From Rhodococcus sp. BP22 (lineage in GTDB: Bacteria; Actinomycetota; Actinomycetes; Mycobacteriales; Mycobacteriaceae), in the NCBI RefSeq assembly GCF_014281965.1, contig NZ_JACFTB010000001.1, forward strand, positions 868,001-932,000: 64,000 nucleotides of DNA. The letters are read 5' to 3'. The notes below the pieces were generated by a model that searched no databases, was not told the DNA's origin, and worked only from the letters and a program-made list of their open reading frames with translations. The position numbers and the translations under genes were made by a program. Position 1 is the first letter of the stretch. Every line of letters begins with the position of its first letter. Positions 54,538 to 61,891 of the stretch are shown here, in pieces.

Positions 54538-54634
54538 AATCGGTCGTGGTACGGGACTCGAGGACACCGGGCGAGATCGATCCGGAAGGCACGGCAAGTT
54601 CATCGGTCCCATGCGGCCTCTTCGCCGGAGCCGA

Positions 54635-54754
54635 AGGCGTCAGTACGGTCTGAGCCGGAGGCGTCAGTACGGTCATGGCCGGAGGCGTCAGTACGGTCAT
54701 GGCCGGAGGCGTCAGTACGGTCATGGCCGGAGGCGTCAGTACGGTCGTGGCCGG
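54635..54754. repeat. 24-bp tandem repeat, five copies
   Basis: Five head-to-tail copies start at 54635, 54659, 54683, 54707 and 54731. The constant part is AGGCGTCAGTACGGTC. The last eight bases are TGAGCCGG in copy 1, ATGGCCGG in copies 2-4 and GTGGCCGG in copy 5. As 24 is a multiple of three, open frames run through it on both strands, but none is convincing. It lies upstream of the rpsH promoter and close to terminator T7. Confidence 0.95.
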
Positions 54755-54770
54755 ATTCACATACAACAAA

Positions 54771-55921: not shown

Positions 55922-56290
55922 TTACAGCACCTCCGGGGCGAGCGAAACGATCTTCATGAACTTCTTCTCACGCAGCTCGCGGCCGACTGGGCCGAAGATG
56001 CGGGTTCCACGAGGATCGTTGTCCGGCTTGATCAGCACGGCAGCGTTCTCGTCGAAACGGATGTACGAGCCATCCGGACGGCGACGCTCCTTGACGGTGC
56101 GGACGATGACGGCCTTGACGATCTCGCCCTTTTTGATGTTTCCACCGGGAATGGCATCTTTCACCGTAGCTACGATGATGTCGCCGATTCCGGCGTAGCG
56201 ACGTGACGAGCCACCGAGAACGCGGATGCAAAGGATTTCCTTCGCGCCCGTGTTGTCAGCGACGCGTACTCGCGACTCCTGCTGAATCAC
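55922..56290 (-). CDS. rplN: 50S ribosomal protein L14
   Basis: 122 residues from GTG 56290 with AGGAG upstream: [60 protein letters not shown], and a C-terminal [12 protein letters not shown]. It sits at a subunit bridge. In most bacteria rpsQ lies directly upstream; here a 5-kb module intervenes and rplN has its own candidate promoter. Confidence 0.98.
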
Positions 56291-56405
56291 TAACTTCTCC
56301 TAGACCTGGATTTGCTTACGCGGCGGATTTCCGTCCCGACGCGCGCGGTCGGCTGCAAGGGCGGCAGTGGCACGAAGACACACCGCTGCCCCAGGCAACC
56401 GGTCA

Positions 56406-56435
56406 AGTGTAGGGGAAGCAGCCGAAAGAGTCCAA
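56406..56435 (-). promoter_or_regulatory. Candidate promoter of rplN operon
   Basis: On the minus strand TTGGAC (56430-56435) and TACACT (56406-56411) are 18 bp apart. Downstream of the -10 lies CGGTTGCCTGGG (56390-56401), 11 of 12 bases identical to the rpsH counterpart. The predicted start near 56399 gives a leader of about 110 nt. Confidence 0.55.
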
Positions 56436-56540
56436 ATCGGTGAGTCCGAAAGTGGCGACTCGTTGCGCGAAGAGAAACGGACCACCGGTATGGTTTCGCG
56501 ATGTGTATGCGCATCGCGGGAGCGAACCGGTAACTGTGGC

Positions 56541-57611
56541 ATGACGACTGGGCACGTCGACACTTGGTGTCTCCCCCTCGATCGAGCCGTCTGCCTCGTG
56601 GGCGCACCCGGAGATGCGATCGCCGTCGCACTCGAGGATCTGTCGGACACGGCTCCCGCCTTGATTCGAGTTCATGTCGAGCCGAGGGATCGTCAGTCCG
56701 CTGTGATCGAGCAGGTGCTCTCGGCCTTGACTGTGATCGCGATCGAACTGTTTCCTGCATGGTTGCCTGACGCATCGTCGATCACCGGTCGCAGCTCGCT
56801 GGATTTCACAGCGGTTCGGATCCATGCACGTCACCTAGCCTCGAACAGCGATCACTACGGCCCGTTTCTGGCGGATCTCGCCGAACGATCCCTTGGCAAC
56901 AATGCAACGGGACGTCCGTTCTCCGACGCCGAGGTGGCGGAAGGTTTGGCCGGCATCCTCGGCGCCAGTTGGCAACGTGAACAGGTCGCGCTTCTGGTGG
57001 ATTCGGACAAGCTTTCACCGATGCAGCAGCATGCCTTCGCGGCTGCGTCGGAGTGGCTGGCCGCCCGCGGGTTCGCCGTATGGCTCGTCGACAATCCAGT
57101 GCCTACCGTCGACCGCCTGTCCAGCGTGTTCGTGTCGTTGCCACGAGAACTACTCGACGTGGACGACACCGGCCAGCGCTCTCGAACGAGGCCCACGGTC
57201 GAGTATTGGGCCGTCGCTGGAAGGCCTCACCCGGGCAGCGACGTGGAGAAAAGCGTCGATCGAGAGCTTTCCAAGCATTCGTGGGCCACGAATCGGCGAC
57301 TCAATCACCCTTTCCAGTACAACGAGATCGCGCAGAAGTACTTTCTCGACATTGTGTGGCTCGAAGACTTGTTCGCCGTCGAGTTGGACGGTCACGAACA
57401 TCGGTCCGTCTGGAGTAGAGCCAAAGACGACAAGCGTGACGAAATTCTTCGTGGCGTGGGCTTCGAGATTCTGCGTATTCCCAACGAGCGTGTGCATGCA
57501 GACGTATGGCAGGTTGTCCACGAGATACAGGCTGCGCTGTACCGACACCGCCTCATCCGGAACTCCGCTTCGAATGCACTTACCGCCACGAAAGAAGGAT
57601 CACACCAGTGA
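56541..57611 (+). CDS. Putative nuclease with C-terminal DUF559-like PD-(D/E)xK domain
   Basis: 356 residues from ATG 56541. Residues 1-220 are not recognised; they look alpha/beta (ALLVDSDKLSPMQQHAFAAA) without a signal peptide. The C-terminal 120 residues carry a DUF559/Vsr-type fold. Glu236 lies in a helix (DVEKSVDREL), Asp270 in YFLDIVWLEDL, and Glu281-Leu-Asp283-Gly with His287 in FAVELDGHEH. DDKRDEILRGVGFEILRIPN completes the signature. The usual lysine is replaced by Asp, as in DUF559 proteins. It starts the three-gene module and its stop overlaps the next gene (GTGA). No strong ribosome site is visible. DNA cleavage is inferred from the fold. Confidence 0.75.
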   Translation: MTTGHVDTWCLPLDRAVCLVGAPGDAIAVALEDLSDTAPALIRVHVEPRDRQSAVIEQVLSALTVIAIELFPAWLPDASSITGRSSLDFTAVRIHARHLASNSDHYGPFLADLAERSLGNNATGRPFSDAEVAEGLAGILGASWQREQVALLVDSDKLSPMQQHAFAAASEWLAARGFAVWLVDNPVPTVDRLSSVFVSLPRELLDVDDTGQRSRTRPTVEYWAVAGRPHPGSDVEKSVDRELSKHSWATNRRLNHPFQYNEIAQKYFLDIVWLEDLFAVELDGHEHRSVWSRAKDDKRDEILRGVGFEILRIPNERVHADVWQVVHEIQAALYRHRLIRNSASNALTATKEGSHQ

Positions 57612-58285
57612 CAACCGAGCTGACATTCGTCGAACGGACCACACTGCTCGTACTGATGGCGGAATCTCGACCACTGAAGCTCACAGAGTTGAGGGTCCTC
57701 GGCTCCGAACTGAGCGCTAAGTCGCGAGACAAGCTGCTCGGGGCCGAACTGATCGGGGTCGAGAAGGTCGGCCGCGGAATTGTTGTCGACCTCACCGACA
57801 AGGGATGGGCCCGCGGAAGCCAGGAGTTCGGGGCTCCCGCCCCGTCACAGGCGAGCCGCAGTGGCGGCAAGACTTTGTACACCCTGCTCCGCGCGATGCG
57901 CCGATACTTCGATCGCGTCGGGATCGAACCCAATGAGGTGTTTCTGCCCGTAACAATGGACACGAGCCAGAAGCACGCCGTCATCGGTCCCGTCGTCGAG
58001 AATAGTGCGGAGAATGCTGTCGACTCCGACCCCGAAAGCCTGGTTCGCGACAGTTACCACCGCCTTGCCAGTGAGCCGCGAGCATGGGTCTCGCTGACGC
58101 GACTTCGCGAGGCCCTGCGGACCATGGACCCATCGGTGCTGGACGCCGCTCTGAGTTCGCTCTATCGCGCTCAAGAGATCAACCTGATCCCCGAGGCCAA
58201 CCAGGCGACCTTGACCGATCCCGACCGCGCCGCAGCACTCCGCATCGGCGGCCAAACGCGTCACATGATGAGGATCGACCGCTGA
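57608..58285 (+). CDS. Hypothetical protein with probable winged-helix segments, module gene 2
   Basis: 225 residues from GTG 57608, inside the previous stop and seven bases after AAGGAT. Residues 1-75 (LVLMAESRPLKLTELRVLGS, then GVEKVGRGIVVDLTDKGWAR) resemble a winged helix-turn-helix. The middle has a basic helix (TLYTLLRAMRRYFDRVGIEP). The C-terminal 70 residues (WVSLTRLREALRTMDPSVLD, then AALSSLYRAQEINLIPEA) look like a second one. There are no catalytic motifs. Its stop shares a base with the ATPase start (TGATG). A DNA-binding or adaptor role linking nuclease and ATPase is inferred from structure and position. Confidence 0.72.
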   Translation: MTTELTFVERTTLLVLMAESRPLKLTELRVLGSELSAKSRDKLLGAELIGVEKVGRGIVVDLTDKGWARGSQEFGAPAPSQASRSGGKTLYTLLRAMRRYFDRVGIEPNEVFLPVTMDTSQKHAVIGPVVENSAENAVDSDPESLVRDSYHRLASEPRAWVSLTRLREALRTMDPSVLDAALSSLYRAQEINLIPEANQATLTDPDRAAALRIGGQTRHMMRIDR

Positions 58286-61200
58286 TGACCATGGACGCCG
58301 AGCAGTACGCAGCGCTCTCCTCCGTTCAGTTGACCTGGGCCCCCACCCCCGACGACGTCTGGCGCACCAACGAACTTCACGTCGGTGGCATGAACGAGAA
58401 CTCACTGAGCAGCGTCATGCGGTCGTTCGACGAAGCTGACAAGCGCCCGACCTCGAAACCGCTGGGAGTGGTGATCCAGGGCGCCGCAGGTTCGGGAAAA
58501 ACTCATATGTTGGGCCAGGTTCGTGAAAAAGTTCAAAACGCCGGCGGTTACTTCTTCTTGATCGAATTGCTCGACGAGAAAGTTTTCTGGGACTCGGTGC
58601 TCCACGGAATACTCACCGACATCGAAAGACCGACACCGGGTTTCGACAGCCAACTCGAGAAGCTTCTCTGGGATCTCGGAACCGACGTCGGACTCGGTCG
58701 CATGGAATGCCGGGCGCTGCAGGGCGAGCGCACCGTCAGCCCCGATTTGATATCGCAGTTCATCGATCGACTGCGTCGCAAGTACCCGGACCTCAAACAA
58801 GCACGTCACACACTGCGGGCACTGGTGTTGGCAGCGAGCGCTGACTTCGACCTACAGGATCTGGGCGACGCGTTCCTGCGGTCGAACGATGCACTCGACC
58901 ACGAGCAGCGGACTTATTGGGGTCTCCCCAATGCCGTGCTGACCTCACAACAAGTGGCCGTCGATATTTCGTGGCTGCTTTCGCTGAGCGCACCCACTGT
59001 CGTTGCTGTCGATCAAATTGACACCCTCATAGCTCAATCGCGCATGCAGAGCGATCCGAAAGGAGCGTTCACGGCCGAACAGGGCACCCAGCTCGACAAT
59101 ATCGCTCACGGCCTGATGGGACTGCGGCAGAACCTCGTTCGTACCGTAGCGGTCATTTCACTACTACCCAGTGCGTGGACTTTCATCGCCGACAACACGG
59201 TCGAGTCAGTGAAAGACCGCTTCCACGTAGCCGAGTCGCTGCATCAGATTCCGACGAGAGAGATCGGCGTCGAAATCGTCGTCAAACGCTTCGCAGCCCG
59301 ATACGACGAAGCCGGATTCACTCCCCCACATCCGACGTGGCCCATTGCGCCCGAAGCATTCGACGATGTAAATCTCTACAATCCGCGCACCCTGCTGCGC
59401 AGCGTGGACGATCACATCCAAATTTGCCTACGCAACAACGACATCACCGAACTTAAGACCCTGAGCCCACTCGTTCCGCCGGAGGCAACGATCCCCCCTC
59501 CCCCCGGCAATTTCGCAAAACTCGATGCCCGATTCGCGGAACTGCTTGCCGTGGCCGATCTCTCTGCGTTGGACGCCGACGATGAGGACGACACAGTGCC
59601 CTCATTACTCGGTGCTGGACTCGATGCCTGGATCACCGAAACCGGCACCGTAGAGTACAAATTCACGCGCGACGCCGAACCCGGGCGCAAACCGTCACTT
59701 CACGGGCGGATACGGCGAATCCTGGACGACGTCACGGACGACCAAGAACACTGGGGATTTCGCGCGATTGCTGCCACCCATCCGATTTCCGTACAGAACA
59801 GGATCCAAAAGGCCTGTACTGCTGCTGGATTGACGCAGGGAACCGACAAACGACGTCTAGTTATCCTTCGGTCTGCGCCCTGGCCGAGTGGGCCCAAGAC
59901 CGCCAAGACGGTGCAAGCATTCGAAGATGCAGGCGGGATCGTCGTCTCCTTCACCGAAAGCGATGTCCTCGCACTGTCCGCGTTGAAAACCCTCGCCGCC
60001 GAGAACGACGAGAACCTGCAGGCGTGGCTGGTTGCAAGGCAGCCCGCTCACGAGATCGCCCTGTTCCGCGACGTACTTCCGACGACACCGGTTCTCGCCG
60101 AAGCACCGGGAGCGAATACCGTCGTTCGCCCACCGGCTACCGACCCCGGCCTGTTTCCTGTCACCGACGCGCGAACCGGAGAACAAGCACCGGCACCGGC
60201 ACCAGCCGAGCCCGGACCACCAGCACAACCGCTCTCGGACACGGCGATTCCGCTGGGTACACCGACAGAAGGTGGACCCGAGGTCAGTGTCGAACTGGAG
60301 ACACTCCGTAAGCACACCGCTATCTTCGCCGGCTCCGGGTCCGGCAAGACGGTTCTCATCCGTCGCCTTCTCGAGGAGTGCGCTCTCAAAGGTGTCTCGG
60401 CAATCGTGCTCGATCCCAACAACGACCTGTCGAGGCTGGGCGTCGAGTGGCCCAGTGGTACTCGCAACTGGACGGGCGACGACGAAGCCAAGGCCTCGGA
60501 CTATTTCTCCCACAGCGAGGTAGTCGTGTGGACACCTCGTCGTAGTGCCGGTCGAGCATTGAGCTTTCAGCCTTTGCCGAATTTCGCGGAGGTCATCGAC
60601 GATCCAGACGAATTCGATTCCGCGGTGGAGAGTGCCTTGTCCTCGTTGGCTCCGCAGGCAATGGCAGTGGGCGGGACGGCAAAGAGTCGACAGATGATGG
60701 CAGTGCTTCGCCAAGCGCTGGTCGACTTCGGCCATCGTTCGCAGGGAAGTCTGGACGATTTCATCGACCTCCTCGAGAACTTTCCGGACGGCGCCAGCAC
60801 CCTCAAGAACGGTGTGAAAATCGCTGCCGACCTCGCAGAGAACTTGAAAGCGTCCACGACTACCGATCCCCTGTTCGGCGGTGCGGGATCATCGGCAGAT
60901 CCAGGGATGCTGCTGACTCCCAGCGCAGGTAAGGGCGCACGAATCTCGGTCATCAACATGTCGGGGCTGACGACGGCATCGCAAAAAGAGAACTTCGTCA
61001 ATCAGCTTCAGATGGCACTGTTCGCATGGATCAAGAAGAATCCGGCCGGCGATCGACCCCTCGGGGGGCTGTTCGTGCTCGACGAGGCTCAGAACTTCGC
61101 CCCATCGGATAGAACGACGATCTGCCTCCACAGCACTCTTGCGCTCGTGTCGCAGGCCAGGAAGTACGGATTGGGGATGGTCTTCGCGACACAGGCACCG

Positions 61201-61464
61201 AAGGGTCTCAACAACAAGATCCCAGGAAACTGTGGCACTCAGTTCTACGGTCGACTCAACGCACCGGTGCAAATCGAGGCTGCCAAGGAAGTTGCGCGGG
61301 TCAAGGGCGGAACAATCCCCGACATCGGTAAGCTCCCCGCCGGCGAGTTCTACGCAGCGGTCGAGGAGTCAGCGTTCGTACGCACCAAAACCAGGCTCTG
61401 CCTGTCGTATCACCCGAAGAGTCCACCGACCGAAGAAGAGGTCATCCGATTGGCGCGAGGATGA
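58285..61464 (+). CDS. Double ATPase: N-terminal AAA-type plus C-terminal HerA/FtsK-like translocase
   Basis: 1059 residues from ATG 58285. Near the N-terminus GAAGSGKT (66-73) is a Walker A motif, and TVVAVDQIDTLI near residue 243 fits Walker B of an AAA/STAND-type ATPase. A helical middle follows (to about 480), then a region of unclear fold, then a Pro/Ala linker near 630-655. The C-terminal domain has Walker A GSGSGKT (683-689), VLDPNNDLSRL, Walker B LFVLDEAQNF (Asp933-Glu934) and FATQAPKGLNNKIPGNCGTQ, typical of HerA/VirB4/FtsK-like DNA pumps. It is the last gene of the module. The subfamily is not recognised. Confidence 0.82.
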   Translation: MTMDAEQYAALSSVQLTWAPTPDDVWRTNELHVGGMNENSLSSVMRSFDEADKRPTSKPLGVVIQGAAGSGKTHMLGQVREKVQNAGGYFFLIELLDEKVFWDSVLHGILTDIERPTPGFDSQLEKLLWDLGTDVGLGRMECRALQGERTVSPDLISQFIDRLRRKYPDLKQARHTLRALVLAASADFDLQDLGDAFLRSNDALDHEQRTYWGLPNAVLTSQQVAVDISWLLSLSAPTVVAVDQIDTLIAQSRMQSDPKGAFTAEQGTQLDNIAHGLMGLRQNLVRTVAVISLLPSAWTFIADNTVESVKDRFHVAESLHQIPTREIGVEIVVKRFAARYDEAGFTPPHPTWPIAPEAFDDVNLYNPRTLLRSVDDHIQICLRNNDITELKTLSPLVPPEATIPPPPGNFAKLDARFAELLAVADLSALDADDEDDTVPSLLGAGLDAWITETGTVEYKFTRDAEPGRKPSLHGRIRRILDDVTDDQEHWGFRAIAATHPISVQNRIQKACTAAGLTQGTDKRRLVILRSAPWPSGPKTAKTVQAFEDAGGIVVSFTESDVLALSALKTLAAENDENLQAWLVARQPAHEIALFRDVLPTTPVLAEAPGANTVVRPPATDPGLFPVTDARTGEQAPAPAPAEPGPPAQPLSDTAIPLGTPTEGGPEVSVELETLRKHTAIFAGSGSGKTVLIRRLLEECALKGVSAIVLDPNNDLSRLGVEWPSGTRNWTGDDEAKASDYFSHSEVVVWTPRRSAGRALSFQPLPNFAEVIDDPDEFDSAVESALSSLAPQAMAVGGTAKSRQMMAVLRQALVDFGHRSQGSLDDFIDLLENFPDGASTLKNGVKIAADLAENLKASTTTDPLFGGAGSSADPGMLLTPSAGKGARISVINMSGLTTASQKENFVNQLQMALFAWIKKNPAGDRPLGGLFVLDEAQNFAPSDRTTICLHSTLALVSQARKYGLGMVFATQAPKGLNNKIPGNCGTQFYGRLNAPVQIEAAKEVARVKGGTIPDIGKLPAGEFYAAVEESAFVRTKTRLCLSYHPKSPPTEEEVIRLARG

Positions 61465-61560
61465 GTTAACCGGACTGGTTGCACTGGAAACGTCCGCCCA
61501 TGAAGACAACAGCGCAGCTGTGCTCGGCCTACCGTGAATCCAGAGTGCTTGCCTGAACAC

Positions 61561-61600
61561 AGCAAAGCCCCCGTCCGCGATAGCGAACGGGGGCTTTGCT
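61561..61600. terminator. Bidirectional terminator T8
   Basis: A perfect 14-bp stem (61561-61574, AGCAAAGCCCCCGT, with 61587-61600) with a 12-nt loop lies between the module ATPase and the convergent rpsQ. It can end both the module and the S10 operon. Confidence 0.9.
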
Positions 61601-61612
61601 GTTTACTGCTGC

Positions 61613-61891
61613 TTACTTGGCCTTTTCGAGAACCTCTACCAGACGCCAGTGCTTCGTGGCGGACAGCGGGCGGGTCTCCATGAGCTGAACGCGGTCGCCT
61701 ACACCGGCGACACCGTTCTCGTCATGAGCCTTGACCTTCGTGGTGCGACGGATGATCTTGCTGTAGAGAGGGTGCTTGACCCTGTCTTCGAGCTCGACCA
61801 CGATCGTCTTCTCCATCTTGTCGGAGACGACATAGCCGATCCGAATCTTGCGGTTGTTGCGTGTTTCAGTCACTGTCTTTTCCTCGCTCAT
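61613..61891 (-). CDS. rpsQ: 30S ribosomal protein S17
   Basis: 92 residues, an OB-fold: [40 protein letters not shown] and [20 protein letters not shown]. The ATG at 61891 overlaps the rpmC stop (ATGA). It is the last gene of the S10 operon here, cut off from rplN by terminator T8 and the inserted module. Confidence 0.97.

Follow-up and report, generated by a model that had tools for sequence, protein, structure and literature searches.

What does a set of genes for a predicted nuclease, a small winged-helix protein and a large ATPase do between two ribosomal protein genes of a Rhodococcus chromosome? The set lies in a stretch of 64,000 nucleotides from Rhodococcus sp. BP22 (contig NZ_JACFTB010000001.1, positions 868,001 to 932,000), hereafter the window, of which it fills positions 56541-61464 between rplN and rpsQ. 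Our study points to a modular system against invaders, of the HerA/FtsK-capture type, an interpretation that we hold to be reasonably probable. The two-gene core of the set was found beside different presumed weapons in many actinobacteria, which suggests an interchangeable defence module. The genes, here called NUC (56541..57611), WH (57608..58285) and HERA (58285..61464), lie on the + strand, whereas rplN and rpsQ lie on the - strand; NUC and WH share a 4-base GTGA overlap, and WH and HERA a 1-base TGATG overlap. A preliminary description, made from the letters of the window, had already given these coordinates, overlaps and strands correctly. The arrangement is no chance product, as the same order was seen in 73 distinct trios. 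The genome of the window measures 4.48 Mb, and the closest named relatives of its HERA, among the best 80 of at least 555 matches, were those of Rhodococcus sp. 1163 (94 %) and H36-A4 (95 %).

Predicted proteins of the trio

NUC (356 aa) matched the DUF559 family in Pfam (PF04480, E 4.3e-13) and, by profile, PDB entry 3hrl (E 1.9e-12). Its residues E236, D270, E281 and D283 were the same in all 29 aligned sequences, among them that of the window. The Pfam match and this invariance confirm the earlier assignment of a DUF559-like PD-(D/E)xK protein with Glu236, Asp270, Glu281 and Asp283. The N-terminal region (1-230) was conserved. WH (225 aa, GTG start) gave an AlphaFold2 model with two predicted winged helices at residues 7-72 and 142-223 (mean pLDDT 88.5, pTM 0.60), in keeping with the small protein with probable winged helices expected from the letters of the window. 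MarR-like matches were found for residues 1-100; no Pfam match lay above the cut-off, and a Foldseek search with the model returned nothing under E 0.001, ScpB ranking second at 0.019 with no identity claimed. Calmodulin was rejected as a relative of WH, its profile matches (best E 0.0012) being judged spurious.

HERA (1059 aa) was resolved into an AAA-type ATPase at about residues 38-383, a middle alpha/beta domain (411-597), a disordered linker (601-649) and a HerA-type motor (650-1059). Pfam matches to AAA_16 (E 7.4e-9) and DUF87/HerA (E 1.1e-11) supported the fusion of an AAA-type and a HerA/FtsK-like ATPase that had been proposed for this 1059-residue protein. The Walker residues were invariant in 32/32 sequences, and the AAA part of 32 members matched AAA_16 in every case, nSTAND_NTPase5 in 25 and an ORC-CDC6-like family in one (best E 0.008). 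Structure comparison of residues 640-1055 gave the motor the fold of HerA and of the C-terminal part of DndH. The middle of the protein formed an alpha/beta domain at residues 434-573 of the model, and sequence searches of Pfam and PDB returned no convincing match for it.

A constant core with exchanged neighbours

We gathered 144 HERA copies with a length of 950 aa or more, of which 125 were distinct after identical ones were dropped; these 125 are a non-random set of chosen best matches, the best 80 of at least 555 matches and three records from a plasmid collection. WH was directly upstream of HERA in all 144 copies, in 139 by gene calls and in five (L131, L136, L141, L142 and L146) by tblastn, where the gene caller had missed it. 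The WH and HERA genes typically overlap by 1 or 4 bases, and NUC and WH by a median of 4 bases (n=83). A census upstream of HERA, covering NUC within three genes and other neighbour types within five, found a DUF559 gene in 69 of the 125 distinct copies, a trypsin-type gene in eight, a DUF4365 gene in four, none of these in 41 (which include the second copy of L036/L096) and a contig edge in three. The HERA tree (FastTree, 125 rows) calls for 14 or more changes of neighbour type and for five or more of place. The distances of NUC, WH and HERA correlated across 73 distinct trios (Mantel r 0.85-0.90, with 0 of 999 permutations as high), r being 0.90 for NUC against HERA. The earlier view of the trio as a unit was thus right in that the three proteins diverge together, but the constant unit is the pair of WH and HERA, to which the nuclease is joined only in the 69 copies counted above.

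The four DUF4365 copies (L078, L082, L083 and L084) all came from one genus, with genomes of 6.3-8.6 Mb. The order DUF4365 - PDC-M02B - WH was found on one strand. In L078, L082 and L084 these genes are 3-28 bases apart; in L083 the first gap is 175 bases, a value that depends on the start call. PADLOC, run on L084, identified the DUF4365 protein as PDC-M02A (E 2e-60) and the next as PDC-M02B (E 4e-43), both parts of its candidate system PDC-M02; the other three copies were assigned to PDC-M02 by sequence cluster, and L080 holds PDC-M02B without PDC-M02A. The DUF4365 domain itself was matched in Pfam in L084 (1.5e-10) and L082 (2.9e-11). Since PDC-M02A and PDC-M02B lie just upstream of WH-HERA on one strand in these copies, the candidate may be half of a larger system with WH-HERA; the trio of the window has neither gene. 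According to one report, DUF4365 is also named DREN, the DNA and RNA effector nuclease of SPARDA (PMC12205087).

The trypsin-type neighbour is a divergent gene of 1,291-1,357 codons that stood beside WH in eight copies and formed one sequence cluster. Three of the eight were scanned with Pfam: trypsin family PF13365 was matched in L159 (4.5e-13) and L171 (3.3e-8), and L152 gave no trypsin match up to 0.01. All three carried a STAND-type ATPase, and both of those scanned at full length had WD40 repeats. The genera of these eight copies belong to Micromonosporaceae. A Trypco1 gene was called between the trypsin-type gene and WH in five of the eight, with PF19493 at 2.5e-18 in both that were scanned. 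Trypco1 has been defined as a protein that often accompanies trypsin-like peptidases in conflict systems dependent on NTP (PMC7159879).

Comparison of the window with its four closest species revealed purifying selection throughout the trio, strongest on the motor and weakest on NUC and WH. Values of w were 0.03-0.08 for the motor, 0.07-0.10 for the AAA part and 0.11-0.18 for the middle of HERA, 0.17-0.20 for WH, and 0.15-0.24 and 0.23-0.32 for the DUF559 part and the N-terminus of NUC. Ribosomal genes are a poor control for the synonymous rate owing to their codon bias.

Alleles and distribution

The genus of the window was represented by 37 species, all with rplN and rpsQ, and was searched with HERA at E <= 1e-30. 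The slot between the two ribosomal genes is filled by one of two alleles in 29 species, and a third, allele C, lies elsewhere in seven others; the remaining species gave no HERA match and has its slot split over two contigs. Judged by eye, allele B, placed by HERA tree or identity in the slot of 22 species, is consistent with the main groupings of the ribosomal tree. Allele A, that of the window, is the slot allele of seven species, and six of these are a single clade in the same tree. The remaining one, G235 (locus L036; 909 of 3,417 columns missing), falls inside a B clade and carries the A trio in tandem in front of a B pair that lacks the nuclease. Alleles A and B are 50-54 % identical in HERA and 32-37 % in NUC, against 93-99 % for rplN and rpsC between the same genomes. 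A fourth, divergent HERA lineage, of about 43-45 % identity to the window, adds a copy in G256 (L047) and, judged by identity alone, at G235:C11:480508-483630; both genomes keep their slot copy. A single HERA type was found in 32 of 36 carriers, and every HERA fetched from the genus had WH and NUC upstream, apart from the second L036 copy and the shortened copies of L052, L054 and L193.

Allele C is a complete trio outside the slot in its seven carriers, beside a gene that resembles, by eye, a DinB polymerase. It occurred in seven of seven carriers without a complete trio in the slot and in none of the 29 with one. The slots of the seven lack HERA in five cases and hold a B-type copy without NUC in two. 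At L052:8337-11033 and L193:3247-4227, B-type HERA lacks about 100 motor residues in frame (767-867 and 764-864 in the numbering of the window), which correspond to the four-helix insertion. The L052 copy has an open frame and keeps both Walker motifs of the motor, its nuclease being gone; a complete allele-C trio is present elsewhere in the L052 and L193 genomes, and the HERA copies of L054 and L193 run into contig ends. The shortened slot copies of L052 and L193 may still be functional, which weakens the apparent exclusion between allele C and a slot trio; the main argument is independent of it.

Beyond the genus, where HERA was counted at E <= 1e-60, it was patchy in three other genera, with 17/118, 63/248 and 19/59 species (14-32 %), and rare in a sample of the phylum (6/396). 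Plasmid records gave matches in five of 72,556. In three the match spanned most of the query, and these three include one record of chromosome size and one that contains the ribosomal genes as well. A prophage or plasmid island was considered as the origin of the set and rejected, as the searches of plasmid, phage and IMG/VR records were near-empty and the window holds no tRNA.

Comparison with described systems

The trio was compared with defence and repair systems that combine a HerA-like motor with other proteins. Neither NUC nor WH had a match in PADLOC; for these two proteins there was likewise no SIR2 or DUF4297 match in Pfam or PADLOC and no NurA match in Pfam or NCBIfam. HERA scored 20.2 bits against HerA_antiphage (cut-off 800) and 15.4 bits against HerA_antiphage_2 (cut-off 850) in NCBIfam. 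The DUF4297-HerA and SIR2-HerA (Nezha) systems therefore differ from the trio in effector family and in the scores of the antiphage HerA equivalogs, and the trio adds an AAA module and the WH adaptor. HerA-NurA repair differs in its NurA. In PADLOC the best match of the motor was mad8 (E 1.9e-18), with weak DndH matches at E 0.01 and 0.083, and none of the three proteins matched BREX. MADS comprises mad1 to mad8, and apart from mad8 no MADS protein was matched; the flanks are ribosomal. DndF and DndG are the partners of the motor protein in DndFGH, as PglZ and BrxC are in BREX, and none of these partners was found among the three proteins. The motor has a fold like that of the C-terminal motor of DndH, but it is fused to an AAA domain and no DndF or DndG match was returned by PADLOC.

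A class of systems with AAA ATPase, winged helix, nuclease and HerA has been predicted to act against invaders (Rakesh, Aravind and Krishnan 2024, PMC10853773). With its HerA/FtsK capture systems that contain an Orc/CDC6 ATPase, the trio shares an AAA ATPase, a HerA motor with a four-helix insertion, a winged-helix protein and a restriction-type nuclease, all in one operon. A HerA/FtsK translocase, a restriction endonuclease (REase) with an intact predicted active site (29/29) and a winged-helix protein were found in the trio, and no feature of the class was refuted. The class also has an AAA ATPase of the Orc/CDC6 family, for which one of the 32 members gave a match, and an inactive REase between the AAA core and a C-terminal winged helix, for which HERA offers the alpha/beta domain at 434-573 with no convincing sequence match; neither identity was confirmed. 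Of the two REase families of the class, section 22 of PMC10853773 names only the AbiJ-type one; the trio nuclease is DUF559. That section is silent on a ribosomal slot and on an exchange with trypsin. The trio is filed as a variant of this predicted class, with a membership that is not beyond doubt. The preliminary description had found no match to BREX, DISARM, Dpt, Nur-HerA or SIR2-HerA; this stands in that PADLOC, NCBIfam and Pfam gave no complete system, but the blueprint had already been predicted as a class in PMC10853773. The open-licence literature in PMC yielded no paper on PDC-M02, on HerA/DUF87 in Rhodococcus or on DUF559 with phage and ATPase.

Possible function and competing explanations

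If the trio is an anti-invader system, WH would bind DNA and dock on the AAA part of HERA, which would act as an ATP switch. Once foreign DNA is met, be it phage genome, replicating plasmid or transferred strand, the HerA motor would assemble as a ring, pump the foreign DNA and feed it to a coupled effector. That effector would be the DUF559 nuclease in the window and, in relatives, the DUF4365 nuclease with PDC-M02B or the trypsin-STAND-WD40 gene. Exchange of presumed effectors around a constant pump and adaptor, a patchy distribution in three of the four related genera and replacement of alleles in place are what is expected of an immune module. More tentatively, WH-HERA could be an unnamed chromosomal immune platform of actinobacteria, with its weapon exchanged over evolution, its alleles swapped in a fixed S10/spc slot and usually one HERA type per species in the genus of the window; we regard this wider proposal as possible, though short of probable.

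Several observations weigh against an immune role. HERA was present in 36 of 37 species of the window's genus and in 15 of 16 of one other, and near-universality in two genera is unusual for a defence system. The trio is chromosomal in setting: the one true plasmid carrier was Methylobacterium, 50,697 phage records gave no match, and none of 27 pattern matches in IMG/VR was confirmed. In nine nuclease-less pairs w of HERA was 0.066-0.129, compared to 0.048-0.158 in seven nuclease-bearing pairs, and w over whole genes gave no sign of positive selection. It is unlike an immune module to be nearly fixed in two genera, to sit on the chromosome and to keep its core under constraint without a nuclease. 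The exclusion between allele C and a slot trio reflects about two changes along the ribosomal tree, the divergently transcribed trypsin-type gene may be a mere neighbour of WH-HERA, and no other defence gene was recognised in the slot, whose neighbours were not scanned with PADLOC. Ubiquity with vertical descent, which the preliminary description had named as evidence against its own reading, is half present, as HERA is nearly ubiquitous in the genus and allele B tracks the ribosomal tree in its main groups, though one allele takes the place of another in the slot.

The same near fixation would suit a housekeeping machine for DNA repair or end processing like the HerA-NurA of archaea, its loader being WH and its several nucleases including DUF559; such a machine would also account for purifying selection with or without the nuclease, for the complete trio that seven of the eight species without one in the slot hold elsewhere, and for a chromosomal set hardly ever on plasmids and with no phage match. 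We consider it unlikely, given that no HERA match was obtained in 101/118, 185/248 and 40/59 species of the three patchy genera and that the phylum sample yielded so few, that the nuclease is replaced or missing beside WH-HERA, and that alleles only 50-54 % identical have been swapped among species with nearly identical rplN and rpsC. Distinctly doubtful is the proposal that WH-HERA is a translocase with a role of its own, in the handling of plasmids or chromosomes or as the remnant of a transfer element, to which adjacent nucleases are independent passengers. The 41 copies without a listed neighbour could be read in its favour, yet NUC co-diverges with HERA and overlaps WH, and within the window's genus both WH and NUC accompany HERA outside the four exceptional copies (the second of L036, L052, L054 and L193). 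A selfish cassette kept by addiction, its loss being toxic, would account for fixation and tandem copies even if the host gained nothing, as well as for the confinement of allele C to genomes with no complete slot trio. This is very improbable: Pfam recognised no antitoxin-like protein in the trio, one genome that carries only the other allele has its slot empty, and one species has no HERA match at all.

An anti-invader system thus remains our preferred explanation of the trio. The preliminary description had left a choice between an uncharacterised defence and a DNA-repair system in a conserved slot; swapped neighbours and patchy presence in three of four genera favour a conflict role, and near-universality in its own genus goes against it. 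If the anti-invader interpretation is true, the HerA/FtsK capture class gains a compact, clonable three-gene form, the uncharacterised PADLOC candidate PDC-M02 is linked to a HerA pump, and a defence module has come close to core status by lodging at the boundary of two operons. It also raises the question of why pump and adaptor stay selected without a linked nuclease.

The ribosomal slot and its borders

In Escherichia coli rpsQ closes the S10 operon and rplN opens the spc operon, and we take the slot in the window to be the same S10/spc boundary. The slot is bordered by rplN (55922..56290, - strand) on the left and rpsQ (61613..61891, - strand) on the right, and the interval measures 5,322 bp, compared to 239 bp in the empty slot of L179 (genome G304). 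The view that two normally adjacent genes had been split was revised accordingly, since on this background the slot is a junction of two operons and none is broken. A broken ribosomal operon was also rejected because the region upstream of rplN is retained and the rpsQ side ends in a hairpin.

The hairpin (61559..61602) lies between the convergent ends of HERA and rpsQ, with a folding energy of -45.5 kcal/mol (z -8.7) on the - strand and -39.7 kcal/mol (z -6.5) on the + strand; it is likely a bidirectional terminator for both genes. The upstream region of rplN (56300..56440, - strand), with a candidate promoter TACACT at 56406-56411, was conserved in a local alignment with the empty interval of L179, which keeps a hairpin-like stretch as well. 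The boundary elements described earlier were therefore recovered as a strong hairpin and a conserved stretch, but the terminator scan of the window did not include the hairpin among its calls and the promoter scan upstream of rplN made no call.

A survey of rplN-rpsQ intervals, as the preliminary description had proposed, found that the slot holds other cargo in relatives, often a TerD-AIM24 fusion protein (L036:9613-10938, with cluster mates in L037-L046); the L036 protein matched PF01987 (8.7e-38) and PF02342 (1.6e-25). By place, 35 of the 125 distinct HERA copies were at rplN/rpsQ, 11 at rpsN/rpsH or one-sidedly beside ribosomal genes, and 79 elsewhere. The record L092 (NZ_LR134464.1, "plasmid 22", Tsukamurella tyrosinosolvens) holds a VapB-PIN toxin-antitoxin pair beside the trio in the slot; it carries ribosomal genes of S10 and spc and so appears to be chromosomal DNA wrongly labelled as plasmid. 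A second ribosomal junction, between rpsN and rpsH, is where the set lies in Gordonia, Williamsia and kin. At this junction in L069, L070, L090, L139 and L143, genes resembling, by size and by eye, a nitrate reductase and a nitrate transporter stand next to WH-HERA. The window itself has, at 54630-54755, a 24-bp repeat of 5.2 copies in its rpsH-rpsN gap, which corresponds to the site of the WH-HERA set in the Gordonia and Williamsia group.

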